Below are positions 3,324-20,750 of a stretch of DNA of 51,780 nucleotides, piece by piece. The DNA is from Pseudomonadota bacterium (GTDB lineage Bacteria; Desulfobacterota; Desulfuromonadia; Geobacterales; Pseudopelobacteraceae): NCBI GenBank assembly GCA_019352135.1, contig JABBNX010000002.1:18000-69779 (forward strand). The letters run 5' to 3'. Below the pieces are notes generated by a model that saw nothing but the letters and a program-made list of their open reading frames with translations, had not been told where the DNA came from and made no database searches. The translations under genes and the position numbers were made by a program. The stretch's first letter is position 1. Every line of letters begins with the position of its first letter.

Positions 3324-5411
3324 ATGCCACACGGTTGTGACAAGGGATTATCCTTAAGATCAAAAATTACCCTCTATGCTACTAGTATCACCTTCACAAT
3401 TCTGGCGGTGGCATCCGTCACCATCTCTATACTTTCCAGTTTCCGGTTTTTGCCTGTTGTCACCGTTGTACAATTCCCGTTGATTGCCGGTATCGTACTT
3501 ATCGCATTGCTTTCCGGTCTGCTCATGTGGGTGGTGATAGGGAGAGTATTGTCCCCATTACAGACGGTGATTGATCTGATCGGAAGTGTTTATTCCAAGA
3601 CAGGAGATGAACGCTTGCTGCCGGACACTTTTGACGGCGATCTTGGACGGCTGTCCTGTGCCTTTAATAAAATGGTGGGCGAATTTGATCTCCAGCAACA
3701 AAATCTGGTCTTGATGCAGACGGAAATGCAACAGCAGAAAGCCTTTGCTGAAGGGATGCTCAACAAGGCGGCTGTGCCGATATTCGTTTTGGATGCTGAT
3801 CACCGCATTATCGTCTGGAATAGTGCCATGGAAAGTCTGTCCGGTTTCAAAGCTGAAGAGTTGATCGGGACCAACCGTCAGTGGCTTCCTTTTTACGCCG
3901 ATGAGCGTCCGGTGCTGGCCGATCTGGTTCTGACGGCCGATGGGGAGCATCTGGAAGAGTTGTACGGCAACTTCCGCATGTCACAGCATGTGTTGGGAGG
4001 GCTGCAGTCAGAGGGCTGGCTTGAAAATGTTGGTGGAGAACGCCGCTATCTGCTTTTTGATGCTGCGCCTGTTTATGATGCAAATGATGTCAAACTGGGC
4101 GTAATTGAAACTCTGCTCGATATCACCGAACGCAAGTTGGTCGAAGCCGAACTCACAAAAAGTCGCGAGGAGCTGCAGTCTAAACATGATGAGCTGAATG
4201 AACTGTTTGGCCAGGTTGAGAACGGTAAGCAAGAGTGGGAAGACACCATGGACAGCCTTGCGGAAATGGTGCTGATGTGCGACCAGTTTGGCGTTATCAA
4301 TCGCTGCAATCGCGCTGTAACTTCCTTTACCGGGATCCCGTACAATATGATTATCAATAGTGACTGCATGGAACTGTTAGTCAGGGCCGGACTGGAGGTA
4401 ACCGGTTATGACGGAACAAGCGGGCAGCTTGAATGCGAGGGGGGACGACGTCACTTTGAACTGCTTTCGAATGAATTAAAGCAGGCAGGATCTGATAATA
4501 TTCGAGGCGTCGTTGTTACCATCCACGAGACAACGGAACTCTTCAAAATGAATGAAAAACTCCAGAAGGCTTATGCAGAGTTACAGCAGGGCCAGACACA
4601 GATTTTCCAGCAGGAGAAAATGGCATCCATCGGGCAACTGGCAGCCGGCGTTGCTCACGAGATCAACAACCCGATGGGTTTTATCTCCAGCAATCTTAGT
4701 ACCATGGGCAAATACATGGAAAAGATCAGTGCGTTCGAAACGGCCATGATCGAAGCGGTACAGGACAAAGGCGATACGGAGACGGTCGCCACGTTGGGTG
4801 AACTTCGCAAGAAGATGAAAATTGATTTTATTCTTGATGATATAAAAAACCTGCTGGATGAATCACGTGATGGAGCCGAAAGGGTACGGCGCATCGTGCA
4901 GGATCTGAAGAGCTTTTCTCATGTTGACGAGGCCGAGTGCAAGCCGGTCAGTGTCAATGAATGCCTGGACGCGACACTTAATATGCTGCGTAATGAAATA
5001 AAGTATATCGCTGATGTTGAACAGGAGTACAACCCGGATCTACCGATGCTGCTCTGCTTTCCGCAACAGATAAATCAGGTGTTTATGAATATATTGGTCA
5101 ATGCCGCCCATGCCATTGAGGGCCACGGCGTTATTGCTATTAAAACGTTACTCGAAGCGGATGACATTGTTGTACGTATCAGTGACACCGGTAAGGGAGT
5201 TGCGCCGGAAAATCTGACCCGGATTTTTGAACCGTTTTTTACCACCAAGGAAGTTGGCAAAGGAACCGGCCTCGGCCTTTCAATCAGCTATGACATTATC
5301 AAAAAACATGGCGGAGATATACATGTAGAGAGTGAGGCCGGCGTCGGTACGACCTTTATAATCCGGTTGCCGTTGAACCATGTTTTTGAAAGTGATCAGA
5401 CGATATCCTGA
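3324..5411 (+). CDS. Membrane histidine kinase, HAMP-PAS-PAS-HisKA-HATPase
   Basis: A 695-residue sensor kinase. Two hydrophobic segments (about 15-37 and 47-72) enclose only a ~10-residue external loop, so it probably does not bind an external ligand. A HAMP-like region follows, then PAS (about 145-270, ending DITERK) and a second PAS-like region (about 305-405). The HisKA box [20 protein letters not shown] carries the phospho-acceptor H445, and the ATPase domain shows the N box ([10 protein letters not shown]), DTGKGVAP and GTGLGLS. AGGAGG sits four bases before the ATG. The HisKA/ATPase part closely resembles the kinases at 11180 and 15289. No cognate receiver is fused; the nearest is the Rcp-type receiver at 8741. 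Confidence 0.93.
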
Positions 5412-5471
5412 TGAATTGTGTGATCAGTAATTCCGTTTGTGATGTGCAGCAGAAGCTTGTAAGGAGGTCCA

Positions 5472-8400
5472 ATGTCCCACAATGATGTTCAGCTGCACGT
5501 ACTGTATCGCCGGTTATTACGGAGTTGTGGCGTCGCTTCGCTTGCCTTTGGTTGTACCGCCATGGCAGGGTGGCTGCTGAATGCGCCATTTCTGGCGAGC
5601 CTGGGACAAGGGTTTGTCCCGATGGCGCCAAGCACAGCGATCCTGTTTGCTCTCTATGGGATCGGGATATTGATTTCCCCCCGTGTTACATGCGGCCGCC
5701 GGACCACGCTGCTCTTCCAGTCAATTTTCACTTTTGGTGCCCTGATCTCCGCAACCCTGTTAGTCCTTTCAATTAGCGGTATCTTTTTGAATATTGAACA
5801 TCTTGGCTTTCACACAATGGGGGCCATAGACGGTACCCCTATAGGGCATATGTCTCCCATTACCGCATTTACCTTTTTGTTGATCAGCGGTCTGATTGTA
5901 CCGTTGGTACGTAGGGCTGTACCTGTCGGTGCGTGGCGATACAAGGCGCCCTGGTGGGCCGCAATTGTCTTGATTGCGGTCTATGCCATGCTTGTTCTTG
6001 CGTATCTTTTGGGTACGCCACTGTTTTACGGAGGCGACTTTATTCCACCGGCAGTGACCACAAGTCTTGGATTCATTGCACTTGGCATTGCCCTGTCTGT
6101 TCTGTTTCGACCACGAGCCTGGCCGGAAGCCGCCAAGAGTATTCGGGAAGCCCACAACCATTCCCCGGTTATGATCATCTTATTTATCTTTATGGCTGCA
6201 GGCATTATCTCTGTCGGCTATTTCTACCACCGTAATCACCAGAAACAGTATCTGGCCGAGGTTGGGCTTCAGTTATCTGCGATCGCCGATCTTAAGGTGA
6301 ATGAGTTGCAGCACTGGCGGGAAGAACGAACTGCAGATGCCGGGATTTTTTACCACAATGCGGCCTTTGCTTCGCTCGTAAAGGATTATGTACATCATTC
6401 TACTTCCGAACAGATTCGGCGGGAAATTGAAGATTGGACCATAAATATCCGGAATAACCATAATTACACTCGGGTTATTCTGCTTGATGCCCGGGGGAAA
6501 ATCAGGTTTTCACTTCCTGAGATGTCTTCTGAACCCCTTTCTTATTCAATACATCAAAAGGCCGCCGAATCACTCCGCACAGGCCGGATAACATTTACCG
6601 ACTTTTACCGGAATGCGTCCAACGGGAAAATCTATCTGAGCATTCTGGCCCCGATTTTCGATCCAGACCGTGAGGGGACTCCGCTTGGAGTACTGGTGCT
6701 GAGGATCGATCCCGAGAGATATCTGTATCCGTTCATCCAGCGCTGGCCCAATGCCAGCACCACTGCAGAAACATTGCTTGTGCACAGATATGGCGCCGAT
6801 GTTGTCTTTCTGAATGATCTCAGATTCAAAAATCATGCGGCATTGAATCTGAAATTTCCGCTCACAAGAACCGAAAATCCGGCTGTAATGGCCGTTATGG
6901 GACGGGAAGGGATCGTGCGGGGCACCGATTACCGGGGTCACCCGGTAATCGCCGCACTGCGCAATATTCCCGATTCACCCTGGTATCTTGTCGCTCGTAT
7001 GGATGCTGCTGAAGTGTATGCACCGATGCGTGAGAGGTTATGGGGTACGGTATTACTGATAAGCGCGATGCTGCTGAGCGCCGCCACTGGCCTCGGGCTG
7101 GTTTGGCGGCAACAGAGCCTTTCTTATTATAGAAACGCCGATAAACAGTTCCGGCAAAACAGGGAACGCCTGCAAAGTGTCCTGAATGTTTTTCAATTTG
7201 AGTCTAACAACATGAAAGAGTTGCTGGACTTTACTCTCAACGAGGCGATCGGCATAACCTCCAGCAAGTATGGTTATATCTATTATTATGATGAAGAAAA
7301 AAAACAGTTTATTCTAAATTCATGGTCGCGCGATGTGATGCATGCCTGCAGCATAACAGATCCGCAGTCAGTGTATGATCTTGATAAAACCGGCATCTGG
7401 GGTGAAGCGGTACGCCAGCGTCGGCCGATTATGGTCAATGATTTTGACACGCCTGATCCGTTACTGAAAGGTTACCCCGAAGGTCACGTGCATCTGAGCC
7501 GCTTCCTTACTATTCCCCATTTTGACCAGGGTAAGATTGTTGCTGTGGTGGGTGTTGCCAACAAAGAGACTGATTATGACGATTCCGACGTGCTCCAGCT
7601 TACTCTGTTGATAGGATCTGCCTGGAAAATAGCCGAACGGAGACGGGTGGAAGCGGATATGTCCCACCAGTCCGCCTTGTTGCGTAGAATAATCGATTCA
7701 ATCCCGGATCTGATTTTCTACAAAGATGTCAAAAGTACCTTTCTCGGCTGCAATAAGGCTTTTGAACGTTTTGCAGGTCGGACGGAGAGGGAACAGGTCG
7801 GCAAGACTGATTTTGATTTTTTTGATCATGAACTTGCCGAATTTTTCCAGAAAAAAGATCGTGAAATGCTGGCTACCTGCCAGTCGTCCAGCAACGAGGA
7901 GTGGGTTACCTACCCGGATGGCACTAAGGTCTTGCTGGATACGCTTAAGACTCCGTTTTGCGGGATTGATGGAAAGTTGCTGGGACTGGTCGGTATCAGT
8001 CGCGACATTACTGAGCGCAAGCTGAAAGAACAGGAAATTGAAGAAAAGAATGCCGAATTGGAACGATTCACATATACCGTCTCTCACGATCTGAAAAGTC
8101 CGCTGGTGACCATAAAAACCTTTCTGGGGTATCTTGAGGCGGATATCAAGCTCCCGGACAATGACCGTATTCAGCAGGATCTTGGTTTTATGCATAACGC
8201 TGCCGATAAAATGTCGCAACTGCTTAATGAACTGCTGGAGTTGTCGCGTGTCGGACGGATCAACAATCCTCCTCAAAATGTTGCTTTCATGGATGTGGTC
8301 AATGAGGCAGTCCGGTTGGATGCGGGGAGAATAAGTAAGCGTGGCGTAATGGTAAAAATCATTGATTCACCGGTTATGTTGTGCGGTGACAGAGCACGTC

Positions 8401-8729
8401 TGGTGGAAATATGGCAGAACCTGGTGGAAAATGCCGTGAAGTATAGTGGCGACGAGCCGGCGCCGTCTATTGAGATCGGGTGTACGAATGAGGATAGTGT
8501 TTCGATATTTTTTGTGCGGGATAACGGCATTGGTATAGATCCCCCGTATCACGAAAAAATCTTCAGCCTCTTTGACAAGCTTGATTCAACTAGTGAGGGT
8601 ACCGGTTTGGGGTTGGCACTGGTCAAGCGTATCGTTGAATTATATGGTGGTAAAATTTGGGTCGAGTCACAAGGGAATGGGCATGGTTCCTGTTTCCGGT
8701 TTACATTGCCGGAAGCCATACAAAAATAA
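5472..8729 (+). CDS. Large membrane hybrid-sensor histidine kinase (7TM-like, extracytoplasmic, GAF, PAS, phytochrome-type HisKA)
   Basis: A 1085-residue kinase. About seven hydrophobic segments cover residues 15-250, an extracytoplasmic Cache/CHASE-like region runs to about 515, and one more membrane helix (about 520-545) precedes the cytosolic part. GAF (about 570-715) and PAS (about 730-850, ending DITERK) follow. The H box FTYTVSHDLKSPL carries H872, the form found in phytochrome-like kinases, then NLVENAVKYSG, DNGIGI and GTGLGLALVKRI. AAGGAGG lies ahead of the ATG. The stop is 11 bases before an Rcp-type single-domain receiver, the usual partner of this H-box type, so the two are likely a pair. 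The signal is unknown. Confidence 0.92.
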   Translation: MSHNDVQLHVLYRRLLRSCGVASLAFGCTAMAGWLLNAPFLASLGQGFVPMAPSTAILFALYGIGILISPRVTCGRRTTLLFQSIFTFGALISATLLVLSISGIFLNIEHLGFHTMGAIDGTPIGHMSPITAFTFLLISGLIVPLVRRAVPVGAWRYKAPWWAAIVLIAVYAMLVLAYLLGTPLFYGGDFIPPAVTTSLGFIALGIALSVLFRPRAWPEAAKSIREAHNHSPVMIILFIFMAAGIISVGYFYHRNHQKQYLAEVGLQLSAIADLKVNELQHWREERTADAGIFYHNAAFASLVKDYVHHSTSEQIRREIEDWTINIRNNHNYTRVILLDARGKIRFSLPEMSSEPLSYSIHQKAAESLRTGRITFTDFYRNASNGKIYLSILAPIFDPDREGTPLGVLVLRIDPERYLYPFIQRWPNASTTAETLLVHRYGADVVFLNDLRFKNHAALNLKFPLTRTENPAVMAVMGREGIVRGTDYRGHPVIAALRNIPDSPWYLVARMDAAEVYAPMRERLWGTVLLISAMLLSAATGLGLVWRQQSLSYYRNADKQFRQNRERLQSVLNVFQFESNNMKELLDFTLNEAIGITSSKYGYIYYYDEEKKQFILNSWSRDVMHACSITDPQSVYDLDKTGIWGEAVRQRRPIMVNDFDTPDPLLKGYPEGHVHLSRFLTIPHFDQGKIVAVVGVANKETDYDDSDVLQLTLLIGSAWKIAERRRVEADMSHQSALLRRIIDSIPDLIFYKDVKSTFLGCNKAFERFAGRTEREQVGKTDFDFFDHELAEFFQKKDREMLATCQSSSNEEWVTYPDGTKVLLDTLKTPFCGIDGKLLGLVGISRDITERKLKEQEIEEKNAELERFTYTVSHDLKSPLVTIKTFLGYLEADIKLPDNDRIQQDLGFMHNAADKMSQLLNELLELSRVGRINNPPQNVAFMDVVNEAVRLDAGRISKRGVMVKIIDSPVMLCGDRARLVEIWQNLVENAVKYSGDEPAPSIEIGCTNEDSVSIFFVRDNGIGIDPPYHEKIFSLFDKLDSTSEGTGLGLALVKRIVELYGGKIWVESQGNGHGSCFRFTLPEAIQK

Positions 8730-8740
8730 GGAGTTACTCA

Positions 8741-9193
8741 ATGCGCGGTGAACCGATTGTAGTTCTTTTAGTGGAAGATGACCCGGCCCATGCCGAAATT
8801 GTGAGAAGAAATTTTGAAACATCCCGGATAGCCAACCGCTTGATACACCTTTCTGACGGCCAGGCAGCTCTGGATTATCTCTGCCGACGCGATGTCTTCA
8901 GCGATCCGGCCACATCTCCGCGGCCCGGCATTATTTTGCTCGACCTGCGCCTGCCAAAGGTTGATGGTCTTAATGTTCTGAAAAATATTAAAAGTGATCC
9001 GCTGCTGGAAAAAATTCCGGTTGTAATCCTGACAACTTCGGCCGCCGAATCGGATATCGTCAAGGCCTATGAGTACCATGCCAACAGTTATCTGGTAAAA
9101 CCGGTTGATTTCCATAGTTTTACCGAATTGATGGATACGCTTGGATATTATTGGCTGGTATGGAATCAGCACCCAGCGCCTAAAGGAGAATAG
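8741..9193 (+). CDS. Rcp-type single-domain response regulator
   Basis: A 150-residue stand-alone receiver of the Rcp1 type, which takes phosphate from phytochrome-like kinases. Acidic pocket E12-D13-D14, phospho-acceptor D68 in ILLDLRLPKVDG, T98 and K120 are all present. The CRRD insertion before the D68 strand is typical of Rcp proteins. The start chosen is the ATG at 8741 with AAGGAG just upstream, which overlaps the previous stop codon region; a longer in-frame opening exists inside the kinase gene but has no better signal. One base separates its stop from the next gene. No output domain, so it acts by protein contact or as a phosphorelay shuttle. Confidence 0.92.
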   Translation: MRGEPIVVLLVEDDPAHAEIVRRNFETSRIANRLIHLSDGQAALDYLCRRDVFSDPATSPRPGIILLDLRLPKVDGLNVLKNIKSDPLLEKIPVVILTTSAAESDIVKAYEYHANSYLVKPVDFHSFTELMDTLGYYWLVWNQHPAPKGE

Positions 9194-9194
9194 G

Positions 9195-11183
9195 ATGGGA
9201 ACACAGCATCTCAAGATTCTTATTGTTGAAGATGAAGCGGCACACGCCGAATCGATGCAACGGGAGCTGACCTCAAGCACTATGTCTATGACAGTCACAC
9301 TCGTAAGTTCTCTCAGTGAGTATCGAGCCAGTATTGCTGAATCTGTTCCGGACATTGCCATCATGGACTTGAATCTTCCTGATGGCAAAGCGGTCGAGGT
9401 GCTGACATCTCCCGCAGAATCAGGTGCTTTCCCTATCCTGCTGATGACCAGCCACGGCAACGAACAGGTTGCGGTGGAAGCAATTAAATCCGGCGCTCTT
9501 GATTATGTTGTCAAGTCACCTGAAGCCTTTGCGTTGTTGCCGCACATTGTTACGCGAGCTCTCCGCGAATGGCGTTTACTGATAGATCGCCAGCAGGCGG
9601 TGGCGTTGGTCAGCGAGCAGGAAGAGGAACTTGATGCGATTTATGAAAATGCTCCACTGATCATGATGCTGGTTGATCAGCAACACCGGGTCTGCAAGGT
9701 TAACTGTTCCGGTGAAACATTTACGAAGGACCGGAGAGCGCAGATGCTTGGCGCAACCATCGGGGATTCCCTGCACTGCCTGCAATCGGCGCTTACTGAT
9801 TTAGGATGCGGCTTCGGAAAAAAGTGTCCTCAATGCGCCTTTCGCAAGCTGTTACATGAGACGGTAGAACATGGCATTACTTTCACATCGGTTGAAGTGA
9901 GCCTGATGTTTGATCATGATGGATTCGAACGGGAAGTTCTGTTTCTCTGTTCGACAAAAAAGCTGATTATTCGTAAGGAACCATTGATTCTGGTAAGTCT
10001 GCTTGATATTACCGAGCGCCGTACACTGGAAGAACAGTTGCGACAGGCACAAAAGATGGATGCCATAGGACGGTTGGCTGGTGGTGTGGCCCATGATTTT
10101 AATAATATGCTGAATGTTGTTATCGGCTACACGGAGCTGGCTCTGAAACGGGTGGTTCAGGATGAAAAGACCAGGGCGTATCTCCATGGAGTGCTTGACG
10201 CCGGCAGACGCTCCGCTGATTTGACCAGGCAGCTGCTCGCATTTTCGCGTAAACAGGTAGTTCAGCCCCGAATCCTGGATATTAACAGAACAATCAATGA
10301 TGAAATGATGCTGTTGAACAAACTTATTAGCGAGGAGATCGAGCTTACATTTATTTCCGATCCCGATGCCGGTCCAATTCTGATGGATCCATCACAGATT
10401 GACCAGATTCTGGTTAATCTGGTTGTTAATGCGCGGGATGCCATCGAAGGAAGCGGGAACATTACCATCACGACTGCTAATGCTGATTTGGACGAGTTCT
10501 ATTGCCAATCTCACCGGGGAGCAATGCCCGGGCCGTATATTCGCATTACTGTCCAAGATAGCGGCTGTGGCATGGATGCAGCGACCATTGTGCAGATATT
10601 TGAGCCGTTTTTTACTACCAAAGAACTTGGCAAAGGAACCGGGCTTGGTCTTGCAACCGTCTATGGGATTGTCAAACAGAACGAAGGAGAAATTCATGCT
10701 GAAAGTCTGCCAGGGAACGGCACTACATTTGTAATCCATATTCCGCGCCAAACACTGAAGACTGTTAATCCGTCTCTTGAAACATCCTTTTCTGTCCCGA
10801 AGGGAAGCGAAACAATTCTGCTGGTAGAAGACGATGAATCAAACCTGAAAATTGCTCAACTGCTGTTGGAGGAGAGCGGCTATACCGTGATTTGCAGCAC
10901 ATATCCGCCCGAGGCGTGCAAACTTTATGAGCAGCACGCTGACGAGATTTCACTGTTGTTAAGCGACGTCATCATGCCCGAATTAAATGGCAGGGAGTTG
11001 TATGACCGGATCAGAAGTATTAATCAGGATATCAAGGTGTTGTTCATGTCCGGGTATACCGATGACGTCATTACTACCCGGGGTGTGCTGCCTGAAGGAA
11101 CCAATTTTATACATAAACCGTTTACTATCTCGCAGCTGGCAGAAAAGGTGCGGATGGTATTGGATACGGAAAGTTGCATATGA
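9195..11183 (+). CDS. Hybrid histidine kinase REC-PAS-HisKA-HATPase-REC
   Basis: A soluble 662-residue kinase with a receiver at each end. The N-terminal REC has D58 ([11 protein letters not shown]) and K in VVKSPE. A PAS-like domain (about 140-290) carries a cysteine cluster, C195, C205, C211 and C214. HisKA has H300 in [11 protein letters not shown], the HATPase has [13 protein letters not shown], and the C-terminal REC has D591 (LLLSDVIMP) and HKPF. The start is the ATG at 9195, preceded by AAAGGAG. The receiver-first layout suggests it is itself a phosphorylation target, perhaps of the preceding kinase/Rcp pair. Its N-terminal REC is closely similar to that of the next gene, a sign of local duplication. 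Confidence 0.92.
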
Positions 11184-12400
11184 ACACGACATCTCTGGAT
11201 ATTTTGATTGCCGAAGATGATGTGGGTCACGCCACGGCGGTCCGGCGCAGTCTGGAGAATACATATCCTGATGCAGCCATAACGGTTGTTACGAGCATTC
11301 GCGAATATCGGGAATATATTGCCAGATCCATACCGTCTATTGCCATTCTGGATCTCAATCTGAGCGATGGGCGGACTATTGATCTTTTGTCTGCTCCGGC
11401 TGTTGATGCGACCTTTCCGATTATTATAATGACCAGTTGCGGCAGTGAACAGGTAGCGGCTGATGCAATCAAACGGGGTGCGTTAGACTATATGGTAAAA
11501 TCCCCCGACACCTTTGCAACTATCGGGGCGATGGTTACGGGGGCTCTGCGTGAATGGCACCTGCTGCAGGACAAAAAGCAGATGGAACTGCAACTAAAGG
11601 AATCACAGGCTCGAATCATTCAGCAGGAGAAGATGGCTTCCATTGGTCAGTTGGCTGCCGGGGTTGCCCACGAAATAAACAATCCGATGGGGTATATCAC
11701 GAGCAATATGAATTCCCTCTGGAAGTATGCCGAAAAACTGGCCCAGTTTATAGAAAACCAGGGACAGGCATTGGAAATGTGTGCTGATGAAGCAACCAAG
11801 GCCTCAATCTTCGAAATGAAACGCCAGATCAAGCTGGATTTTATTTTGAAGGATTTTCGCGATTTAATAACCGAATCGCTGGAGGGCTCAAAACGCGTCA
11901 GCAAGATCGTGCAGGATTTAAAAAGTTTTTCACGAGCCGAGGGGGACTACCCGATTCCAGCGAATCTGAATGACTACATTCAAAGCACTATCAATGTAGT
12001 GCGCAATGAGATCAAATATGTTGCCCAATTGAGCATGCAGCTCGGAGATATTCCGCCGGTGATATGCCGGCCACAGCAGATCAGTCAGGTAGTTATGAAT
12101 CTGCTGATAAATGCGGCGCACTCAATTTCTGATAAAGGGATGATAACGGTTGCTACAATGACATCTGGGGAGATGGTTGAAATAAGTGTCGTTGATACCG
12201 GCTGCGGAATTTCGCCAGAAAATATGGAAAAAATATTTGAGCCGTTTTTCACCACGAAAGAAGCGGGCAAGGGGACCGGACTTGGTTTGGCTATCAGTGC
12301 CGATATTGTTCGGAAGCATGGGGGTGAACTGCTGGTCAAGAGCACCATAGGCTCAGGCACAACCTTTACGGTCAGACTGCCAATTGAAGGGACAAGGTAA
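11180..12400 (+). CDS. Receiver-first histidine kinase REC-HisKA-HATPase
   Basis: 406 residues. The N-terminal REC (D58 in IAILDLNLSDG, K in MVKSPD) is followed directly by a short coil and HisKA with H164 in [16 protein letters not shown], then an HATPase with LLINAAHSI, DTGCGISPEN and GTGLGLAIS. The ATG at 11180 overlaps the upstream stop in an ATGA, which argues for translational coupling; a TTG two codons upstream is the alternative. The kinase half resembles that of 3324, whereas the receiver half resembles that of 9195, so the gene looks like a recombination of two neighbours. There is no membrane segment, so it is predicted to be cytosolic. Confidence 0.92.
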   Translation: MNTTSLDILIAEDDVGHATAVRRSLENTYPDAAITVVTSIREYREYIARSIPSIAILDLNLSDGRTIDLLSAPAVDATFPIIIMTSCGSEQVAADAIKRGALDYMVKSPDTFATIGAMVTGALREWHLLQDKKQMELQLKESQARIIQQEKMASIGQLAAGVAHEINNPMGYITSNMNSLWKYAEKLAQFIENQGQALEMCADEATKASIFEMKRQIKLDFILKDFRDLITESLEGSKRVSKIVQDLKSFSRAEGDYPIPANLNDYIQSTINVVRNEIKYVAQLSMQLGDIPPVICRPQQISQVVMNLLINAAHSISDKGMITVATMTSGEMVEISVVDTGCGISPENMEKIFEPFFTTKEAGKGTGLGLAISADIVRKHGGELLVKSTIGSGTTFTVRLPIEGTR

Positions 12401-12408
12401 AATGTATC

Positions 12409-13221
12409 ATGAATCCGATACGCATCCTCTTTGTTGATGATGAACCGAATGTGCTCCGCTCACTTGAGCGCCTCTTTCTTGAAGAGGAATATGAAATTTT
12501 CACTGCTGCTTCCGGCCAGGAGGGATTGGAAACCATAGAACAATCCGGGCCTTTCCAGTTGATAGTTTCCGATTATCGCATGCCTTCGATGAACGGCGTC
12601 GAATTTCTGAGCGAAGTTTACCGCCGTTGGCCTGAAACCGAGCGAATTATTCTTTCCGGCTATGCTGATACGGCAGCCATTGTTGCGGCGATAAACGAAG
12701 GGCGAATTTACAAATTCATTGCCAAACCATGGAATGACGATGAGCTGTTGAGAACAATCCATGAGGTTCTTGATCGCTATGAATTACGTGCCAGCAATCG
12801 CCGGTTGCTGGAAGAACTTTCAACTACAAATACCGAACTGAAATCAATCAATGACAATCTGAACAAGATTGTCGATGAGCGCTTCAAGGTTGCCATGTTG
12901 CAGAGCCGTGCCCTGCATAGTTTTCAGACCGTGCTGGATGTTCTGCCTATTGGGTTTGTTGGTACTGACGGCTACGGCATGATTGTACAGTGCAACAGGC
13001 TTGGAGCAGAAATGCTTGGCCGTGGGCAGGAAGAGCTCATCGGGTATGATCTTTCGACGACGCTGCCGTCGGCACTTCTCCTGAAAATTATAGATCTTTC
13101 CGGCAATTCCTGCGGCGAATATGCCATTGAATTGCCGACTGGAAGGTGCCGTGCATATGTTACGCGGCTCTCCGGAGAAGGTCAGGATGCAATTGTGATA
13201 TCGCTTTTGAAAGAAAACTGA
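12409..13221 (+). CDS. Response regulator REC-PAS
   Basis: 270 residues. An RpfG-like receiver (FVDDEPNVLRSLERLF, D55 in LIVSDYRMPSMNG, SGYAD, KPWNDDELL) is joined by a coiled coil (about 125-165) to a PAS-like domain (about 172-250) that begins VLDVLPIGFVGTDG. There is no DNA-binding or enzymatic output, so it probably signals by protein contact. It starts eight bases after the previous stop. It is the first of four genes here whose receivers share the KPW[ND]D signature after the conserved lysine. Confidence 0.88.
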   Translation: MNPIRILFVDDEPNVLRSLERLFLEEEYEIFTAASGQEGLETIEQSGPFQLIVSDYRMPSMNGVEFLSEVYRRWPETERIILSGYADTAAIVAAINEGRIYKFIAKPWNDDELLRTIHEVLDRYELRASNRRLLEELSTTNTELKSINDNLNKIVDERFKVAMLQSRALHSFQTVLDVLPIGFVGTDGYGMIVQCNRLGAEMLGRGQEELIGYDLSTTLPSALLLKIIDLSGNSCGEYAIELPTGRCRAYVTRLSGEGQDAIVISLLKEN

Positions 13222-13268
13222 TTTTTTATTACAGCACTTGTCCTGTTCATGTGGGCCGGGGAGAATAT

Positions 13269-14597
13269 ATGAGTGAGGCACAACAGAGAGAAAATGAACC
13301 GGTTTCAATTCTGCTCGTCGATGATGAGGAGAATATTCTGCGAGCGCTGCAGCGGCTGTTGATGGATGAGGAAGGTATCGAGATCGCCACGGCTACATCG
13401 GGTGAAGAGGGGTTAAAACTTCTTCCTTCACTGGCCAATCTTGGCCTGATCGTGTCTGATCAACGTATGCCCGGCATGACCGGAGCGCTGTTTCTCGAAA
13501 AGGCACGCGACATAAATCCGGATGCATCACGGATTATTTTGACCGGCTATGCCGATGTTACCGCCGCAGTGGATGCAATTAACAAAGGGGGGGCATGGCG
13601 CTATATCGCAAAACCATGGAATGATGATGAACTGGTGCGCGTAATCCGGGAAGGATTAGAGCGGTACCGGATCATTATCGAAAACCGCCGTCTCAACACC
13701 TTGGTGCTGAAGCAGAATCAGGAACTGGATGAATGGAACAGCAATCTCAAGCAGCGGGTACTTAGTCAGACAACCGAGATTCGTAAAAAAAATGACGAAC
13801 TCCATGATGTCAACAGGCAGGTCAAGAATGCTTTTAATGAAATAATTTCCGCGTTTTCAGAACTTTTGAACCTTCGGGACCAACGCTTCAGAAGCCATGG
13901 CAGAAATGTAAGCGATCTTGCCTGCAACGCCGCTCTGGTCATGCAGTTATCGGCCGGCGACATCGAAACGATACGGATTGCCGGACTGCTCCACGATATT
14001 GGGGAATTGGGAATACCCGAAAATATTCTGGTTATGGAGCGGGAAATGATGACTGCCGAAGAGGCGCACATCTATCAGACTCATCCGGTTCGAGGGCAGG
14101 CGGCGCTTGATGCGGTTGAACAGCTTCGTCCGGCCGGGATTCTGATTCGCCATCATCATGAACGCTGGGATGGAGGCGGATTTCCGGATCGCCTCGTCGG
14201 TGACAGCATTCCGATGGGGGCACGGATACTGGCCTGCGCCGATTCAATCGATCGGATAATGAGCCGCGATCATACCGAACATGCACTTGCTGCCGCGATT
14301 GCGCGCATTGAACTGGAATCGGAACATGCTCTTGATCCGGAGCTGATAAAAATATTTCGCTCTACCGCGTCAAAAACTTACCCTTTGCGTGATACCAGTC
14401 AAAAACTTGTGGAACGAGAACTGCAACCGGTAGCCCTCCATCTCGGGATGCGCCTTGCCCGCGACATAATCAGCGGGACCGGTCTTCTGCTGCTGGGCCA
14501 TGGTGAAGAGCTTGACGAAGCCCGTATCGCCTCGATCAGCCGCTATTACCGGATTGACCCGCCAGGTCACGGCGTTTTCGTTCTGGTTGAGAGGTAG
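13269..14597 (+). CDS. Response regulator REC-HD-GYP (RpfG-like) with altered active-site motifs
   Basis: 442 residues: REC (D64 in LIVSDQRMPGMTG, KPWNDDEL), coiled coil (about 125-190), HD-GYP domain and a ~60-residue C-terminal domain containing LGMRLARDIISGTGLLLL. HD-GYP proteins hydrolyse cyclic-di-GMP. The metal-binding H242-D243 pair is present in LLHDIGELGIP, but the lysine of the usual HDIGK is glutamate. HHHERWDGGGFPDRL replaces the usual GYP with GFP. Other histidines (HPVRGQ, HHH) are kept, so activity is possible but not certain. The start is the ATG at 13269 behind GGGGAGA. It lies between REC-PAS and the MglA-like GTPase, ten bases from the latter. Confidence 0.9.
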   Translation: MSEAQQRENEPVSILLVDDEENILRALQRLLMDEEGIEIATATSGEEGLKLLPSLANLGLIVSDQRMPGMTGALFLEKARDINPDASRIILTGYADVTAAVDAINKGGAWRYIAKPWNDDELVRVIREGLERYRIIIENRRLNTLVLKQNQELDEWNSNLKQRVLSQTTEIRKKNDELHDVNRQVKNAFNEIISAFSELLNLRDQRFRSHGRNVSDLACNAALVMQLSAGDIETIRIAGLLHDIGELGIPENILVMEREMMTAEEAHIYQTHPVRGQAALDAVEQLRPAGILIRHHHERWDGGGFPDRLVGDSIPMGARILACADSIDRIMSRDHTEHALAAAIARIELESEHALDPELIKIFRSTASKTYPLRDTSQKLVERELQPVALHLGMRLARDIISGTGLLLLGHGEELDEARIASISRYYRIDPPGHGVFVLVER

Positions 14598-14606
14598 GCG
14601 GTCCGC

Positions 14607-15260
14607 ATGATAGAATTTGACGAACAGGCAAAAAAACTGGTGGTGAAACTGGTGTATTACGGCCCGGCGCTATCGGGCAAAACCACAAACTTGCTCTGCC
14701 TGCATGACCAGCTCTGCAATGAAGGGCGCGGCGACCTGATGGTGCTGGACACCGTTGATGATCGCACGATCTTCTTTGATCTGCTGCCGCTTTTTTATGT
14801 GGCCCCTTCCGGGTTTCGCATCAAGCTGAAAGTGTTTACCGTCCCGGGGCAGGTACGGCACGACGCCACCCGTAAGGCGGTGCTGCAGCGCGCTGACGGT
14901 ATTGTTTTTGTCGCGGATTCGCAAAAAGGGAAGATGGGTACTAATGCGGAAAGTTTCGCCAACCTGGAAAACAACCTGTCGATGGTCGGTCTTGATATTG
15001 ATAAACTTCCTCTCGTGATCCAGTTTAATAAACGTGACCTGCCGGATATCATCTCTGAAGATGAGGTAAACGCAACCTGGGGGCCAACAGGATTGCCTTT
15101 AGTCATGGCGTCGTCTCTGCAGGGGGCCGGAGTGCTGGAAGCGTACCGCCGGATAGTTGCCTTGGCTTTTGATGCGTTGGATGCCCGACTGGAGCTGACG
15201 GCACGCTATGGCGTTGAACGGGCGGATTTTGTGAGCAGCGTGTCCAGAATCTCCGGGTGA
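14607..15260 (+). CDS. MglA-type Ras-like small GTPase
   Basis: 217 residues, close to the ~195 of Myxococcus MglA, which sets cell polarity and drives type IV pilus and gliding motility when GTP-bound. G1 is YYGPALSGKTTNL (about 17-29), the switch region contains DDRTIFFDLLPL, G3 is VFTVPGQVRHDATRK, which has the MglA-like threonine/proline in place of DxxG, then IVFVADSQKGK and G4 NKRD (141-144). The C-terminal ~25 residues extend past the core. No MglB (roadblock GAP) gene is in the window. It lies inside an operon between REC-HD-GYP and a kinase gene, and two genes before a PilB-like ATPase, which fits a role in pilus control. Confidence 0.9.
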   Translation: MIEFDEQAKKLVVKLVYYGPALSGKTTNLLCLHDQLCNEGRGDLMVLDTVDDRTIFFDLLPLFYVAPSGFRIKLKVFTVPGQVRHDATRKAVLQRADGIVFVADSQKGKMGTNAESFANLENNLSMVGLDIDKLPLVIQFNKRDLPDIISEDEVNATWGPTGLPLVMASSLQGAGVLEAYRRIVALAFDALDARLELTARYGVERADFVSSVSRISG

Positions 15261-15288
15261 TAGTGTGCCCTCTTCAAAAGGAATGTGC

Positions 15289-16569
15289 ATGAGTATTGAC
15301 AGAAAACTCGAATTCATCATCGGCGAAGATAAAAATCTGACTCAGCTCCTCGAAGTGTCCGAAGCGTTGATGGTGCTGGATGGTGCCGTGCGGGCAGGCG
15401 CGTGTGGTGCTGAAATCAGCGACAGCAACAGGGTGCTGCTTGCAGCCTGCGGTGGCGAGAGCCCATTTTCCGCCATGAGGGCAATTCTGGTTGAAGGTGA
15501 ACCGGCTGGTTCGGTTGTGGTCTATGCTGCGGATTCCGGCGCCAGACTTGAAGGAATTGCCGATATGCTGCATGCGGCTCTACAGACTCTGATCAATGGC
15601 GCCATGAAGCGGATGCTGACAAGCGAGGCGCATACCACTATTGTCAATCAATCCTATGATGAGCTGCTGGAAACGAACGAGAAACTGAGCGGGTCGGAAC
15701 GGCAATACCGCGAGCTGGCTGCTTCATTGGAAACAAAGGTGCAAGAGCGTACTGAAGAATTGAAGCGGGCATACGCCATCATGCTTCAGAAAGAAAAACT
15801 GGCTGCCGTCGGTGGTCTGGCTGCCGGTATGGCACATGAAATCAACAATCCGATCGGTTTTGTCATCAGTAATCTGAACACGTTGACAAAATATGCCACA
15901 AAGCTCAAGGAAATGCTGGAATTCTATCATACGAACTGTGAACCGGCTATTCCTGAGGATCTTGCCAGACAAGCCGAAACCCGGTGGAGAGAGTTGAAAA
16001 TAGGGTATATTTTTACCGATCTTGACGGTCTGGTGAATCAGTCGCTTGACGGCGCAAGGCGGGTGCAAAAATTGGTGGCGGATATGAAGGGGTTTTCGCA
16101 TGTCGGTGAAACCGGGGCGGTTCCCACAGACATTAACCTCGAACTGGAACAGACATTGAGTGTTCTTTGCCATGAGGTCCGGGCGGGTACGGTTATCGAA
16201 TGTAATCTGGGCAGCGTGCCAACGGTGAGGCTGAATCCGGCTCTGCTTTCACAGGCATTTCTGCAGATTATTCGGAATGCCTTGCAACTGAAGGCCCCGG
16301 CGTTAAAGATTGTCGTTACAACCGGCCAGCAGGGTGATGATGCACGTATTCAGATTGCCGATAACGGTCCCGGAATCCCACCAGATATCCGTGACCATAT
16401 CTTCGAACCATTCTTTACCACCAAGGATGTTGGACAGGGAACCGGTATGGGGCTGTCATTGGCAGAACAGGCTGTACAGGCGTGTGGCGGAAAAATTTCT
16501 ATTACCTGTCCGCCGGAAGGCGGTACGGTTTTTACTGTTACTGTACCAATTGGGAGTGAACATTCATGA
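15289..16569 (+). CDS. Cytosolic histidine kinase with N-terminal sensor-like domain
   Basis: 426 residues. Residues about 1-110 form a small alpha/beta domain (possibly GAF-like; not assigned), followed by a coiled coil (about 115-165), HisKA with H183 in GGLAAGMAHEINNPIGF, and an HATPase with IADNGPGIPPD and GTGMGLSL. The N box (QIIRNALQLKA) is less canonical than in the neighbours. The start chosen is the ATG at 15289 with AAAAGGA six bases upstream; a GTG at 15265 and ATG at 15283 are in frame. Its stop overlaps the next start in ATGA, so kinase and REC-PilB are coupled and are the most likely cognate pair. Confidence 0.9.
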   Translation: MSIDRKLEFIIGEDKNLTQLLEVSEALMVLDGAVRAGACGAEISDSNRVLLAACGGESPFSAMRAILVEGEPAGSVVVYAADSGARLEGIADMLHAALQTLINGAMKRMLTSEAHTTIVNQSYDELLETNEKLSGSERQYRELAASLETKVQERTEELKRAYAIMLQKEKLAAVGGLAAGMAHEINNPIGFVISNLNTLTKYATKLKEMLEFYHTNCEPAIPEDLARQAETRWRELKIGYIFTDLDGLVNQSLDGARRVQKLVADMKGFSHVGETGAVPTDINLELEQTLSVLCHEVRAGTVIECNLGSVPTVRLNPALLSQAFLQIIRNALQLKAPALKIVVTTGQQGDDARIQIADNGPGIPPDIRDHIFEPFFTTKDVGQGTGMGLSLAEQAVQACGGKISITCPPEGGTVFTVTVPIGSEHS

Positions 16570-18989
16570 GCAAATATGCAGGCCTGTTCCGGGATATGGT
16601 CAATGATTCGGCAGTTGATAAATCTAATGTATCGGCAGAGGTTGACTCAAAATCCCGGACTGATTTTACGTTGCTTTTTGTCGATGACGAAGAAAATGTA
16701 CTTTCCTCCCTCAAACGTATTTTCATGGAAGAGAATTATATGATCTTGACGGCAACATCGGCCGCAAGGGCATTGGAGATAATGGAAGCACAACCGGTAC
16801 AGTTGATTGTATCCGATCATCGTATGCCGGGTATGACCGGCGCTGAGATGCTTAAACGTATTAAGGAGAGCTGGCCGGAGACGATCCGTATTATGTTGAC
16901 CGGCTATGCCGATGTCAACTCCATCATGGGTGCGGTCAAGGACGGTGCGGTTTACAAATTCATCACCAAGCCATGGAATGATGAAGATCTGCGTCTGACC
17001 GTCAGTCTGGCGTTGCAACAATATGTTCTGATCCAGGAGAACCGCCAGTTAAAAGAGGTCGCCAAGCATCAACAGGCAACTATTACCCGATATGCAGGCC
17101 TTTTTGATGAAAGCCGGGGGATGCTGGCTGACATTTTGATAAAGACCGGCGCACTATCCAAAGATGCGGTGACCTCGGCACGCAAGCAGCGGGAACCGGC
17201 TGAATTTCTGGGTGATACCCTGATCCGGTTGGGATACATAACTGAAAATATACTGGTGCGCGCCCTGCAAAAAAATCTGGGCATTGACTTTATAGATCTG
17301 CGTGAAACTGAGATTAATCCATCTGCGGCCGGCATCATACCGATGGATATCTGCCGGCGACATCGCATTATTGCTGTTCGCATGGAAGCGGGACAGTTGA
17401 TTCTGGCAATGGCAGACCCGTCAGACTTGATGCTCTGCGATAACATTACCAGAGTGACCGGATTAAAGGTTGTGCCGTACATAGCGGTTCCCTCAGAGAT
17501 AACCGCTGCTCTGGAACGGGCTGAAGGCCTTACGGGGTCTGTAGCCGGAATTGAGGATACGTTCGATATTGAACCTCTTGATGAGATAGATATTGTTATT
17601 GAGGATGAAGAAAAAGAGGCAAACGTCGAAGAACTTATCGGCTCATCCAAAGTGCCGCCGGTCATCCGAATCGTTAATTCTATCATTTCCGAGGGTATTC
17701 GGCATCGTGCCAGTGATATCCATATTGAGCCCAAAACCAAGTATACCGTAATCCGGTTTCGTATTGACGGGATACTGCATAGCAAGATCAGAATACCGGC
17801 CGACCTGCATCCGGCTGTTATTTCCCGACTCAAAATTCTTTCAAAAATGGATATTTCAGAGCGGCGCAGGTCGCAGGATGGCCGCATAACCGTCAAGGCC
17901 GGGACGCGTATTGTGGATATGCGCGTTTCTTCGTTGCCGACGCTGAACGGCGAAAAAATCGTCATGCGTATACTGGATAAAGGCGCCGCGATCAAAAGCC
18001 TGAACGATCTCGGCGTGCTCCCCGACGATCTCAAAAAAATCACTGTACTCAGTAAAAAGCCACAGGGGGTCGTGATTGCCACCGGACCGACCGGCAGCGG
18101 CAAAACCACCATGCTTTATTCGCTCCTCTCCTCAATGATGAACTCGTCGCGGAATTTCGAGACCATTGAAGAACCGGTCGAGTATTTTCTCGAAGAGGCA
18201 AATCAGGTCTCGATCCATGAGAAAATCGGCCTGACATTCGCTCAGGTTCTCCGATCGACATTGCGCCAGGATCCGGATGTTATTCTGGTGGGTGAAATAC
18301 GTGACCATGATACCGCCGATGTTGCCTTTAAAGCGTCACTCACCGGGCATATGGTGCTCTCCACACTGCACACAAACTCGGCTATTGGCTCCATAACCCG
18401 CCTGATCGACATGGGCATAAAACCGTATATCATCGCCTCGGCGCTGGAAGGAATCGTTGCCCAGCGCCTAGTGCGAAAGATCTGCAAGAATTGCGCAACG
18501 CTGGTCCCGCCCGACAAGGATCTGCTTGAAATCCTGCGGGTACCAGCCGGATTCTTTACCGGTGATGTCTCTGTCGGCAGCGGCTGTGACGCCTGCAATA
18601 AAAGCGGTTATCAGGGAAGAATCGGTGTCTATGAAGTGTTTATCATGAATGAAGACTTCCGGCAGATCATCGGTAATGACTACAAGGAGTCCGGGGTTCT
18701 GGAGCTGGCTCGTGCCAGCGGTATGCGCACCCTGCTTGAAGATGCACTTGAGAAGGTGCGCCTCGGCTGGACGACGCTGGAGGAAGTGTTGCGGGTGATC
18801 GGTCCGAGTGTATCTCTTGAAAGGCCCTGTTTGCAATGCGGACGTTCAATCGAGGCAAAATTCATGTTTTGTCCATACTGCGGTATGGTCAGGGAAAATC
18901 GCTGCGATCACTGCCAGATGCCGATGGATGCCGATTGGCTTCATTGTCCGTTTTGCGGAGTGGCAAAAAATGAAGGGAGTGTTTTATGA
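16566..18989 (+). CDS. REC-MshEN-PilB/GspE ATPase fusion with C-terminal double zinc ribbon
   Basis: 807 residues. An N-terminal receiver (D84 in LIVSDHRMPGMTG, K135 in KFITKPWND) precedes an MshEN-like N1 domain (about 186-310) with two ~24-residue copies; the second, FLGDTLIRLGYITENILV, fits the c-di-GMP-binding consensus and the first is weaker. The PilB/GspE ATPase follows: Walker A GPTGSGKTT (507-515), Asp box IEEPVEY, Walker B ILVGEIRD, His box HMVLSTLHTN, and the PilB zinc motif C640/C643/C674/C677. The tail adds C755/C758/C769/C772 and C780/C783/C794/C797, two zinc ribbons not found in ordinary PilB. The family powers type IV pilus extension or type II secretion. No pilC, pilT or pilin gene is nearby. 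Confidence 0.93.
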   Translation: MSKYAGLFRDMVNDSAVDKSNVSAEVDSKSRTDFTLLFVDDEENVLSSLKRIFMEENYMILTATSAARALEIMEAQPVQLIVSDHRMPGMTGAEMLKRIKESWPETIRIMLTGYADVNSIMGAVKDGAVYKFITKPWNDEDLRLTVSLALQQYVLIQENRQLKEVAKHQQATITRYAGLFDESRGMLADILIKTGALSKDAVTSARKQREPAEFLGDTLIRLGYITENILVRALQKNLGIDFIDLRETEINPSAAGIIPMDICRRHRIIAVRMEAGQLILAMADPSDLMLCDNITRVTGLKVVPYIAVPSEITAALERAEGLTGSVAGIEDTFDIEPLDEIDIVIEDEEKEANVEELIGSSKVPPVIRIVNSIISEGIRHRASDIHIEPKTKYTVIRFRIDGILHSKIRIPADLHPAVISRLKILSKMDISERRRSQDGRITVKAGTRIVDMRVSSLPTLNGEKIVMRILDKGAAIKSLNDLGVLPDDLKKITVLSKKPQGVVIATGPTGSGKTTMLYSLLSSMMNSSRNFETIEEPVEYFLEEANQVSIHEKIGLTFAQVLRSTLRQDPDVILVGEIRDHDTADVAFKASLTGHMVLSTLHTNSAIGSITRLIDMGIKPYIIASALEGIVAQRLVRKICKNCATLVPPDKDLLEILRVPAGFFTGDVSVGSGCDACNKSGYQGRIGVYEVFIMNEDFRQIIGNDYKESGVLELARASGMRTLLEDALEKVRLGWTTLEEVLRVIGPSVSLERPCLQCGRSIEAKFMFCPYCGMVRENRCDHCQMPMDADWLHCPFCGVAKNEGSVL
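16574..17101 (+). repeat. 12-bp direct repeat flanking the receiver module
   Basis: ATATGCAGGCCT occurs at 16574-16585 and again at 17090-17101, in the same reading frame and both times encoding YAGLF (residues 4-8 and 176-180). The two copies bracket exactly the receiver domain and its linker. It may be a footprint of insertion or duplication of the receiver cassette, or simply a repeated linker sequence. Confidence 0.7.
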
Positions 18990-19549
18990 AAGATGCAATC
19001 CTGCTTGTTGATGATGAGGCCAATGTTTTATCGGCTTTGACCCGCGCTCTTCTTGATGACCCGTATGAGATATTGACGGCGTCAGGTGGTTTACAGGCAC
19101 TTGAAATCATGGAAGGTCGAACTGTAAAGGCGATTGTTTCGGATGAGCGCATGGTCGGAATGCAGGGGTCGGAACTGCTGGCGGAGGTAAAGCGCCGTTC
19201 ACCGCATACGGTCCGTATACTGCTGACCGGCCATGCCACTCTGGAAGCGGCAATTACGGCTGTTAATGAAGGAGAAATTTATCGTTTTTTCACCAAGCCG
19301 TGGGATGACCTGCAGCTCCGATTTGCCCTGCTGTCGGCGGTGGAAAAATATAATCTGGAGGCTGAAAACCGGCGTTTGTTGGCGACAGTCAAAGATCAGG
19401 CCATGGAAATAAAGGTTCTTGAGAAACGTTATCCCGGCATCAGCCGTGTTGAAAAGGATTCGAGGGGTACGTTCGTGCTGCCGGATATCGATGACGAAGA
19501 AATCGCCCGACTGCTTGTGGAGTGCGAACAGGAAGCCCTGGTAAAGTAG
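18986..19549 (+). CDS. Response regulator, RpfG-type receiver with short tail
   Basis: 187 residues. Receiver with LLVDDEANVLSAL, phospho-acceptor D53 in IVSDERMVGMQG, LTGHA and FTKPWDDLQL, then a coiled coil (about 118-150) and a ~35-residue acidic tail ending LVECEQEALVK. No recognisable output domain. The ATG overlaps the REC-PilB stop (ATGA), so it is co-translated with it and is the last gene of the run. It could compete with or relay phosphate to the receiver of the ATPase. It converges on the HD-GYP gene at 19599 with a 49-base gap in which no terminator hairpin was seen. Confidence 0.88.
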   Translation: MKDAILLVDDEANVLSALTRALLDDPYEILTASGGLQALEIMEGRTVKAIVSDERMVGMQGSELLAEVKRRSPHTVRILLTGHATLEAAITAVNEGEIYRFFTKPWDDLQLRFALLSAVEKYNLEAENRRLLATVKDQAMEIKVLEKRYPGISRVEKDSRGTFVLPDIDDEEIARLLVECEQEALVK

Positions 19550-19598: not shown

Positions 19599-20750
19599 TC
19601 AATCGGGACTTTTAATCAAGCGCGTAATAATCCGTAAAAAATTTCGTGTCAGGGCAGGGTGCAAATCGGTTCCCATCATATCAAGCATCATTCCGGCTGT
19701 TTCTTTCAGTGGTACCGGGGCACGATAGGTACGCTTGGTTCTGAGCGCATCAAAAAAGTCGGATATCGTCGTCATGTGGCTGCAGAGATTTTGTTGCCAA
19801 TCGGATGAAACATGCGGATAACCACTCAAATTGTATTTAAGATGATGTTCGTAGGCTGCGATGACCGCCAGCCTCGGGACACCTGATGTTTCAAGCAGAT
19901 GGCGAGCGCCCTTGACCGGGTGTTGCCTCATGATATTGAACTCTTCAGCAGTAAGCTTATCAGGTTTCATAAGAATTTCTTCCGGGATAAACAGTTTGCC
20001 GATATCATGCACCATAGCCGCAATGCCGATATCATTTAACAGCTGTCCTTCAATACCGAGAGCCATCGCCTGTGCCAGATTAAGAACACATACGTTGGTA
20101 GAGTGTGTAAAGGTGTATTCGTCCTTATCCCGCAACGCAGCCATCGCGAGAAGCGGCTTTCCCTCCTGCCGGAAAACATCAATGAAGCTTGAAACAATGT
20201 CAGATACGCCGTTAATCTGAAGTTTATGTTTCTTCTTGACAGTTTCGTATATTTCCATGAAACGGGCAGATTCTTCGTGCGGCATCTCGGGCAGCGTGAG
20301 TTTCCGCTTGTTTGAACCGGTGGCGCCTGTTTTTTCAGGAGAGTCTTGCACCCGAAGTTCTACTTTACCGAGACGTATATGGTCAGAAGATGGCGTTGTC
20401 TGGGCGCCATCTTCTGACTGTCTTGAAAGCCCGCCTATCAGTGCAATAATTTCCGGTTTCGATAAACCGGCCAGCAGTCTGATGGAGCCGATTTCTCGAG
20501 AATTCAGTATCTGTGTGAAACGGTTGAGGAACAGGCTGAGTTCCTGTGGCTTGCCGTCAATGACCAGCTCATTTTCTATTACCAGCAATGTAATACCTGG
20601 TCTGGTTTCAAGAATCAAGCTGATGCTGGTGAATGCCTGTTCTGAAAGCCGCACTACTTGAGGATGTTCCATGCCGTATAAGGCGGCGTTGGTAGCCGCC
20701 GATAACAGGATACGGATGAAATCGTATATAGTGCGACTGGCACTATTCAT
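19599..20750 (-). CDS. HD-GYP domain phosphodiesterase with N-terminal dimerisation-like domain
   Basis: 383 residues. The HD-GYP domain (about 190-370) has the full set: HSTNV, VHDIGK, RQHPVKGARHLLE, YEHHLKYNLSGYP and SDFFDAL. It is therefore predicted to be active against cyclic-di-GMP. The first ~110 residues (HPQVVRL, ENELVIDG, REIGSIRLLAGLSKPEI) match the N-terminal domain of the next upstream gene. The ATG overlaps that gene's stop in ATGA on the minus strand, so the two are coupled. There is no receiver or membrane segment; control is likely through the N-terminal domain or its partner. It converges on the REC-PilB operon. Confidence 0.92.
   Translation of the reverse strand: MNSASRTIYDFIRILLSAATNAALYGMEHPQVVRLSEQAFTSISLILETRPGITLLVIENELVIDGKPQELSLFLNRFTQILNSREIGSIRLLAGLSKPEIIALIGGLSRQSEDGAQTTPSSDHIRLGKVELRVQDSPEKTGATGSNKRKLTLPEMPHEESARFMEIYETVKKKHKLQINGVSDIVSSFIDVFRQEGKPLLAMAALRDKDEYTFTHSTNVCVLNLAQAMALGIEGQLLNDIGIAAMVHDIGKLFIPEEILMKPDKLTAEEFNIMRQHPVKGARHLLETSGVPRLAVIAAYEHHLKYNLSGYPHVSSDWQQNLCSHMTTISDFFDALRTKRTYRAPVPLKETAGMMLDMMGTDLHPALTRNFLRIITRLIKSPD

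Follow-up and report, generated by a model that had tools for sequence, protein, structure and literature searches.

A conserved gene block joining an MglA-type GTPase, a histidine kinase and a receiver-fused PilB-like ATPase: a possible control circuit for a pilus-type motor

The window analysed here, a stretch of 51,780 nucleotides from a bacterium of the Pseudopelobacteraceae (Geobacterales), carries a block of six packed genes for two-component proteins, an MglA-type small GTPase and a PilB-like ATPase. The core of this block, GTPase, kinase and receiver (REC)-ATPase, is a conserved module, its order and adjacency being kept in most of 94 distinct loci. The operon looks like an undescribed control circuit for a pilus-type motor, and we tentatively read it as a GTPase-gated phosphorelay that would license the motor on a platform encoded elsewhere in the genome.

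Gene content of the block

All six genes named in the original prediction were found, from open reading frames (ORFs) and Pfam or NCBIfam matches:

12409..13221, + strand: REC-PAS response regulator (Pfam Response_reg and PAS; same position in many relatives)
13269..14597, + strand: REC-HD-GYP protein, NosR family (NCBIfam 447 bits against a cut-off of 400; metal ligands kept, GYP replaced by GFP)
14607..15260, + strand: MglA-type (Group 1) small GTPase (P-loop, Arg53, TVPGQ82; nearest solved structure MglA 3t12)
15289..16569, + strand: histidine kinase (Pfam HATPase_c; HisKA under cut-off; no membrane stretch seen by eye)
15289..15687, + strand: N-terminal domain of this kinase, with a Roadblock- or GAF-like predicted fold (model and fold comparison; search in 58 genomes)
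16566..18989, + strand: REC-MshEN-T2SSE (PilB-like) ATPase with a C-terminal double zinc ribbon (Pfam)
18986..19549, + strand: stand-alone receiver, REC (Pfam Response_reg)

With starts taken at 13269 for REC-HD-GYP and 15289 for the kinase, the intergenic gaps are 47, 9 and 28 nt, followed by two 4-nt ATGA overlaps at the kinase/ATPase and ATPase/receiver junctions, so that the tight packing claimed for the six genes holds.

Conservation of gene order

Two surveys were used. Within the order, 141 genomes were searched and the neighbourhoods of 55 GTPase carriers besides the window's own genome were taken; more widely, 84,980 species were scanned and the neighbourhoods of the best 80 of 454 matches were taken. 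After removal of duplicates the two sets gave the 94 distinct loci, from relatives in the Desulfuromonadia and from Nitrospirota. A GTPase orthologue was present in 56 of the 141 order genomes, at 58–100% identity apart from two shorter matches, and was separate from the ordinary MglA paralogue, which stands at about 40–46% identity. The usual order is REC-PAS, often a second REC-HD, REC-HD-GYP, GTPase, kinase, REC-ATPase and REC. In 84 of the 89 loci where this could be assessed, the kinase begins no more than 300 nt after the GTPase, and in 73 of 83 the ATPase follows the kinase; because of these two counts, the clustering goes beyond chance. An HD(-GYP) gene lies directly upstream of the GTPase in 75/89 loci; in 55 of the 77 loci that could be assessed, a receiver is found no more than 300 nt from the ATPase. 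In relatives too a kinase is often found upstream of the block. The original prediction would have failed had the block not been conserved in relatives; when this was checked the order proved to be kept across two phyla. The carriers include cultured bacteria (Geomonas, Trichlorobacter thiogenes, Oryzomonas japonica and Geotalea); among the matches listed, the closest named relatives of the window's locus are uncultured Desulfuromonadaceae/Geobacteraceae, Oryzomonas and Geomonas.

On a FastTree tree the Nitrospirota and Desulfuromonadia rows lie mostly apart, with several unplaced metagenome-assembled genomes, and horizontal transfer between the phyla is not decided. 'Myxococcota' labels on this tree stem from metagenome-assembled genomes titled 'Deltaproteobacteria' and were not trusted. 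A fusion of GTPase and kinase, suspected in L120 from a long kinase ORF, was ruled out, as the reading frames differ.

Some relatives carry further genes within or after the block. Many of them have an additional REC-HD protein, about 320 aa long (e.g. L147:6681-7691), between REC-PAS and REC-HD-GYP, and the window is without it. When Pfam was run on the genes after the last receiver in L136 and L147, a DUF6901 protein was found in the former (10943-11662) and an HDOD protein in the latter; 239-aa ORFs occupy this place in L115-L117 (Nitrospirota).

Joint inheritance of GTPase and ATPase

The GTPase and the ATPase co-occur almost perfectly. Among the 141 order genomes both were present in 54, the GTPase only in 2, the ATPase only in 3 and neither in 82, counting partial matches in G010, G013, G067, G090 and G139 as present and ATPase fragments in G125 and G134 as not; a Fisher test on these counts ignores kinship. 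The GTPase-only genomes are G131, with a broken-up ATPase gene, and G049, where the contig stops, while the ATPase-only genomes (G100, G126 and G061) are 66-85% complete. Among 395 genomes of the phylum, both genes were present in 21 and the GTPase only in 0, a match in G331 from residue 321 only having been left out; in addition G421 has a fragmentary GTPase, and G434 has the ATPase only, near a contig start. The spacing of the two genes is 1.28–1.83 kb, which is kinase-sized, in 20 of these 21 genomes and 11.9 kb in G138. Like the kept gene order, this joint presence and absence did not refute the original prediction. The ATPase gene fragments in G125, G134 and G131 (L054), the first two of which lie outside the block-GTPase group, point to decay of the module in certain genomes.

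A rival idea is that the block is a loose signalling cluster, held by co-regulation or block transfer, with no action of its proteins on one another. Signalling genes often cluster, a kinase cassette enters the module at differing places (see below), and correlations of 0.76–0.83 between gene distances are equally expected from shared descent. However, the co-occurrence of GTPase and ATPase over 141 and 395 genomes, a gene order common to two phyla, the relatedness of the receivers and a kinase domain never found apart from the GTPase all argue the other way, and we consider a loose cluster very improbable.

The GTPase and the search for MglB

All of 10 aligned block GTPases have the T78-V-P-G-Q82 motif and R53, and at least 95% of 92 keep them; the P-loop is likewise conserved in the block GTPases. 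The available passages of PMC4316618 give TVPGQ in G3 with an arginine in G2 as the signature of Group 1 MglA, and the block GTPase carries this signature. Among solved structures, those of MglA from Thermus and Myxococcus come nearest to it. It is 43% identical to the MglA of its own genome. Comparison of 89 block GTPases with 31 MglAs showed 35 differently fixed sites, including Phe59 to Leu and Tyr85 to His.

In Group 1, mglB within four genes is usual but not universal (PMC4316618). A stand-alone MglB beside the block was sought by running an MglB hidden Markov model at E<=1 on the 9398 ORFs of 135 block loci, which came from two collections that overlap and were in some cases cut by contig ends. 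It gave 0 matches, while MglB was present in 30/30 canonical MglA loci. In the window's own genome one Roadblock match exceeded the cut-off, beside the ordinary MglA. The description of the block as lacking MglB thus stands as far as an MglB gene in these loci is concerned, but needs qualifying, as the kinase has a Roadblock- or GAF-like predicted domain of its own.

The N-terminal domain of the kinase

This domain was found in 26 of the 58 genomes searched, exactly those with the block GTPase; two further genomes gave matches at E about 0.003. It lies about 200 nt or less from the GTPase in 25 of the 26, and 8.5 kb off in G101, behind an inserted kinase cassette. Because it is tied to one gene pair, it is unlike a general sensor domain.

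The predicted model of the window form (predicted local distance difference test, pLDDT, 82) scored Z 9.9 against MglB and Z 9.8 against GAF-type chains. A long form from Nitrospirota (L134; model pLDDT 87), in which helix 2 is present, matched MglB at Z 13.6 (root-mean-square deviation 2.1, 108 residues aligned) and its first GAF-type row at Z 10.3, and nearly all of its top 44 fold rows are Roadblock, Ragulator, Rag-type or profilin chains. Both models contain long helices, which inflate such scores; according to the fold tool, values of Z below about 13 are then of doubtful meaning. A stretch of at least 28 aa at the place of helix 2 occurs in 10 of 86 kinases, nine from Nitrospirota and one labelled Pseudomonadota. 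Foldseek ranked the CodY GAF domain and MglB together for the long form, and for the window form gave no match at E 0.001, with DosP ranked first. Pfam matches in 61 members of the domain were weak (Robl_LC7 in 2, best E 0.0036; GAF_2 in 1; Diacid_rec in 4), and L134 matched sCache_like only, at E 0.03.

On balance, a Roadblock derivation of the domain appears somewhat more probable than otherwise, and we hypothesize that it binds the GTPase. The full proposal, that a built-in MglB-like Roadblock domain of the kinase would bind the co-encoded GTPase, as GTPase-activating protein or effector, so that GTP state gates phosphotransfer to the motor-fused receiver in a one-operon phosphorelay, is, taken in all its parts, clearly less likely than not.

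An alternative of substantial, though minority, probability is that the GTPase acts directly on the ATPase, placing it at a pole or platform, with the kinase and receivers forming a separate branch and the N-terminal domain being an ordinary GAF/PAS/Cache sensor of a small ligand. There is a precedent in SofG, which positions PilB and PilT unserved by MglB (available passages of PMC4316618), and the tie between GAF and MglB for the window form, the joint ranking of CodY GAF with MglB for the long form and the weak Pfam and Protein Data Bank matches to Diacid_rec, GAF_2, sCache_like and a PhoR sensor would all fit. Unlike a general sensor, however, the domain occurs only with the block GTPase in the 58 genomes, its long form fits Roadblock chains best, and the kinase sits between GTPase and ATPase in most loci.

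Kinship of the receivers

In a tree of 30 receivers of the genome, a bootstrap of 100 separates a group made up of the four in the block and C267:2800 from the remaining 25; the non-block receivers comprised 22 taken mostly from the top of 121 matches and four from the window. The four are 41–52% identical to each other, and the best outside identity is 43%. They are close kin, which would suit one shared kinase but does not in itself show phosphotransfer.

The ATPase, its MshEN domain and c-di-GMP

The block ATPase has the PilB/GspE set of active-site residues. The Walker A Lys, Walker B Glu, His box and tetra-Cys were found in 78/78 rows, as were the Asp/Thr/Lys of its receiver, and the zinc-ribbon Cys in 75-77/78. 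PilB-like ATPases of other families in the phylum (e.g. G315:C6 and G495:C161) match from about residue 185 to the end of the zinc ribbon and not over the receiver; these proteins are possibly a sister family of the motor.

The MshEN domain was compared between the 78 block ATPases and 30 canonical PilBs of the same order. The Arg of motif 1 is present in 1/78 block ATPases but in 30/30 canonical PilBs, and its Gln in 5/78 against 30/30. In motif 2 the Arg has become Phe in 63/78, whereas the canonical proteins have 24 Arg and 6 Lys, and the Gln is present in 8/78 against 30/30. The two RLG...LxxxLxxQ motifs of MshEN domains that bind cyclic di-GMP (c-di-GMP) are accordingly no longer intact in most block ATPases. 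Leu29 is changed in 48/78 and Gly40 in 47/78; several hydrophobic positions are kept. Some caution comes from the passages of PMC5013675 available, according to which single changes of Arg9, Asp12 or Gln32 alter affinity no more than fivefold and hydrophobic losses are worse. The same passages describe XpsE, whose MshEN domain lost c-di-GMP binding through changes of the kind seen in the block motifs. Because both Arg and both Gln, kept in canonical PilBs, are gone in most rows, we judged it unlikely that c-di-GMP would reach the motor through MshEN. The original prediction had counted c-di-GMP among the inputs acting on the ATPase, and this part of it is not borne out by the MshEN anchors.

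In the REC-HD-GYP protein the metal ligands H, HD, H, HH and D are kept in 63-64/64, and the protein may lower c-di-GMP as an output. The GYP motif, which reads GFP in the window, has Phe in 59/64 and Tyr in 4, and the position of Lys247 is Lys in 36 only, so that the protein is a putative phosphodiesterase.

The machine on which the ATPase might act

ATPases of the PilB class work on a platform protein, and the motor genes of such systems are commonly scattered. The window's own genome has seven ATPases of PilB/GspE size and three platform proteins. Gene names read by eye place the latter in a pilB-pilT-pilC cluster, in another cluster of pilus type, and with GspE and GspF-like genes at the ends of two contigs. 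Four of the ATPases, that of the block included, lie on contigs where no platform protein was matched; the other three, all MshEN-T2SSE ATPases, are at L173 1512-3314, L174 9100-11034 and L175 6160-8052, on contigs C250, C235 and C221 of this genome respectively. Reading the flanks by eye revealed no recognisable pilin gene, in agreement with the original prediction, and no pilus or secretion gene was recognised by eye in the ORFs of the relatives' flanks at 15 loci, families having been assigned for four flank genes only. The block had also been called self-contained. This is doubtful, because the class acts on a platform protein and none is encoded here, three being found elsewhere in the genome; the block ATPase would act on a platform encoded elsewhere, or not as a motor.

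The latter case would make the PilB-like protein a signalling hub or scaffold, a hexameric ATPase relaying phosphorylation without a pilus or secretion platform. Its extra zinc ribbon and receiver, the lack of any recognised platform, pilin or assembly gene beside it, and the excess of ATPases over platforms, with three others also without a platform neighbour, would be explained in this way. But scattered motor genes are ordinary in such systems, and the Walker A, Walker B, His box and tetra-Cys residues are complete in every row; ATP-driven work is therefore under selection, and a hub seems improbable.

Proposed mechanism

We favour, at somewhat less than an even chance, a GTPase-gated phosphorelay that licenses the PilB-like motor on a platform encoded elsewhere. 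The kinase would sense the nucleotide state of the neighbouring GTPase through its N-terminal domain, and signals of the upstream kinases might also feed into it. From the kinase, phosphate would then pass to the related receivers, above all to that of the ATPase; once phosphorylated, this receiver would switch the motor or place it on the platform of a pilus or of a type II secretion system. REC-HD-GYP would be a parallel output that may lower c-di-GMP, and not an input to the ATPase through MshEN. The scheme can be likened to the MglA-FrzS/SgmX-PilB route of Myxococcus, with the receiver built into the motor and the GTPase-reading part possibly built into the kinase.

Several points weigh against this phosphorelay. 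Conserved order is association, not wiring, and control of the ATPase by its receiver is assumed from the fusion. A platform gene was not among the family matches on the block contig. Other genes lie between kinase and ATPase in L046, L051 (T. thiogenes), L054, L057 and L062, the ATPase is upstream in L160, and in G069 (L047) the kinase and ATPase are not beside the GTPase. For the N-terminal domain, the fold match of the window form is tied, on a model with long helices, and this model is without helix 2, by which MglB contacts MglA. Comparison of the domain with MglB by hhalign gave a probability of 1.9%, the MglB alignment being shallow (a profile comparison with GAF, also from a shallow alignment, likewise gave no signal); Robl_LC7 matched 0 of 10 long or variant members, L134 included; and there is a weak match to a PhoR sensor, at E 0.0096.

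Relation to known systems

The nearest working analogy is the MglA/MglB-FrzS-SgmX-PilB system of Myxococcus xanthus, which has the same kinds of parts: a GTPase with the Group 1 signature, receiver proteins and a PilB-type ATPase. In the available passages of PMC11580455, MglA leads to the placement of PilB, being the protein that with FrzS and SgmX brings PilB to the pole. Myxococcus mglA lies apart from its partner genes, and the neighbourhoods of Group 1 MglA genes vary widely (PMC4316618). Unlike that polarity module, the present genes form one operon with an ATPase-fused receiver, and no MglB gene was found in its loci. SofG, also of M. xanthus, offers a likeness as an MglA homologue that hydrolyses GTP unaided by MglB and positions PilB and PilT; the passages on SofG mention no operon of a kinase and a receiver-ATPase (PMC4316618).

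The nearest operon analogy is the actinobacterial conservon/AGPS (CvnA-D), which joins a histidine kinase, a Roadblock protein and an MglA-family GTPase (PMC4316618, PMC13343842). As described in the passages available, conservon GTPases are of Group 2 (GTPGQ), and the conservon has a separate Roadblock gene, no response regulator and no motor, whereas the block has TVPGQ and no MglB-like ORF in its loci. The ATPase shares the MshEN-T2SSE architecture and intact active-site residues with MshE/PilB, but differs in lacking the c-di-GMP anchors and in having an N-terminal receiver and a C-terminal double zinc ribbon. XpsE, the GspE of Xanthomonas, likewise has an MshEN domain without c-di-GMP binding, the block's loss being read from residues; the XpsE passages mention no receiver or GTPase partner (PMC5013675). 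In searches of an open-access library, with subscription journals and supplementary tables outside the scope, no listed title or shown abstract described this operon or a GTPase-gated phosphorelay.

Surroundings of the block

The co-directional run begins at 3324, after a 219-nt intergenic stretch, with five signalling genes (3324..12400, + strand; ORFs and Pfam) separated by gaps of at most 60 nt:

3324-5411, + strand: PAS-kinase
5472-8729, + strand: GAF-PAS-kinase (large kinase)
8741-9193, + strand: REC
9195-11183, + strand: REC-kinase-REC
11180-12400, + strand: REC-kinase

Promoter-like sites numbered 28 against 20.3 (standard deviation 3.8) in shuffles and terminator-like sites 17 against 16.8, so that no clear internal boundary emerged from these counts. 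The gene content first given for the operon was right for the six genes, but the run starts earlier, and the C-terminal zinc ribbon of the ATPase had not been listed. The last four of the upstream genes (5472-12400) form a kinase cassette, here upstream of REC-PAS. In L037 and L040 such a cassette directly precedes the GTPase, and in L060 and L061 one separates the GTPase from the kinase; similar cassettes join the module at differing places.

Downstream, on the minus strand (19599-22954), genes for an HD-domain protein and a HEAT-repeat protein are oriented toward the block. Of the order loci, just L035, L049 and L089 have this pair next to the block, and the cut locus L036 shows the HD gene without its partner. 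A DUF4388-REC protein (37008-38678) and a PilZN1-PilZ protein (24416-25519) are also encoded in the window.

Implications

Crosstalk between Ras-like GTPases and two-component kinases in bacteria is an open question, and the function of the conservon kinases has been called largely unexplored (available passages of PMC13343842). Here a GTPase, a kinase and a motor adjoin in a compact operon that is also present in cultured bacteria, so that its wiring, and gating of the kinase by the GTPase through a Roadblock-like domain, become directly testable. Such work could reveal the role of one orphan pilus-type ATPase of these bacteria.

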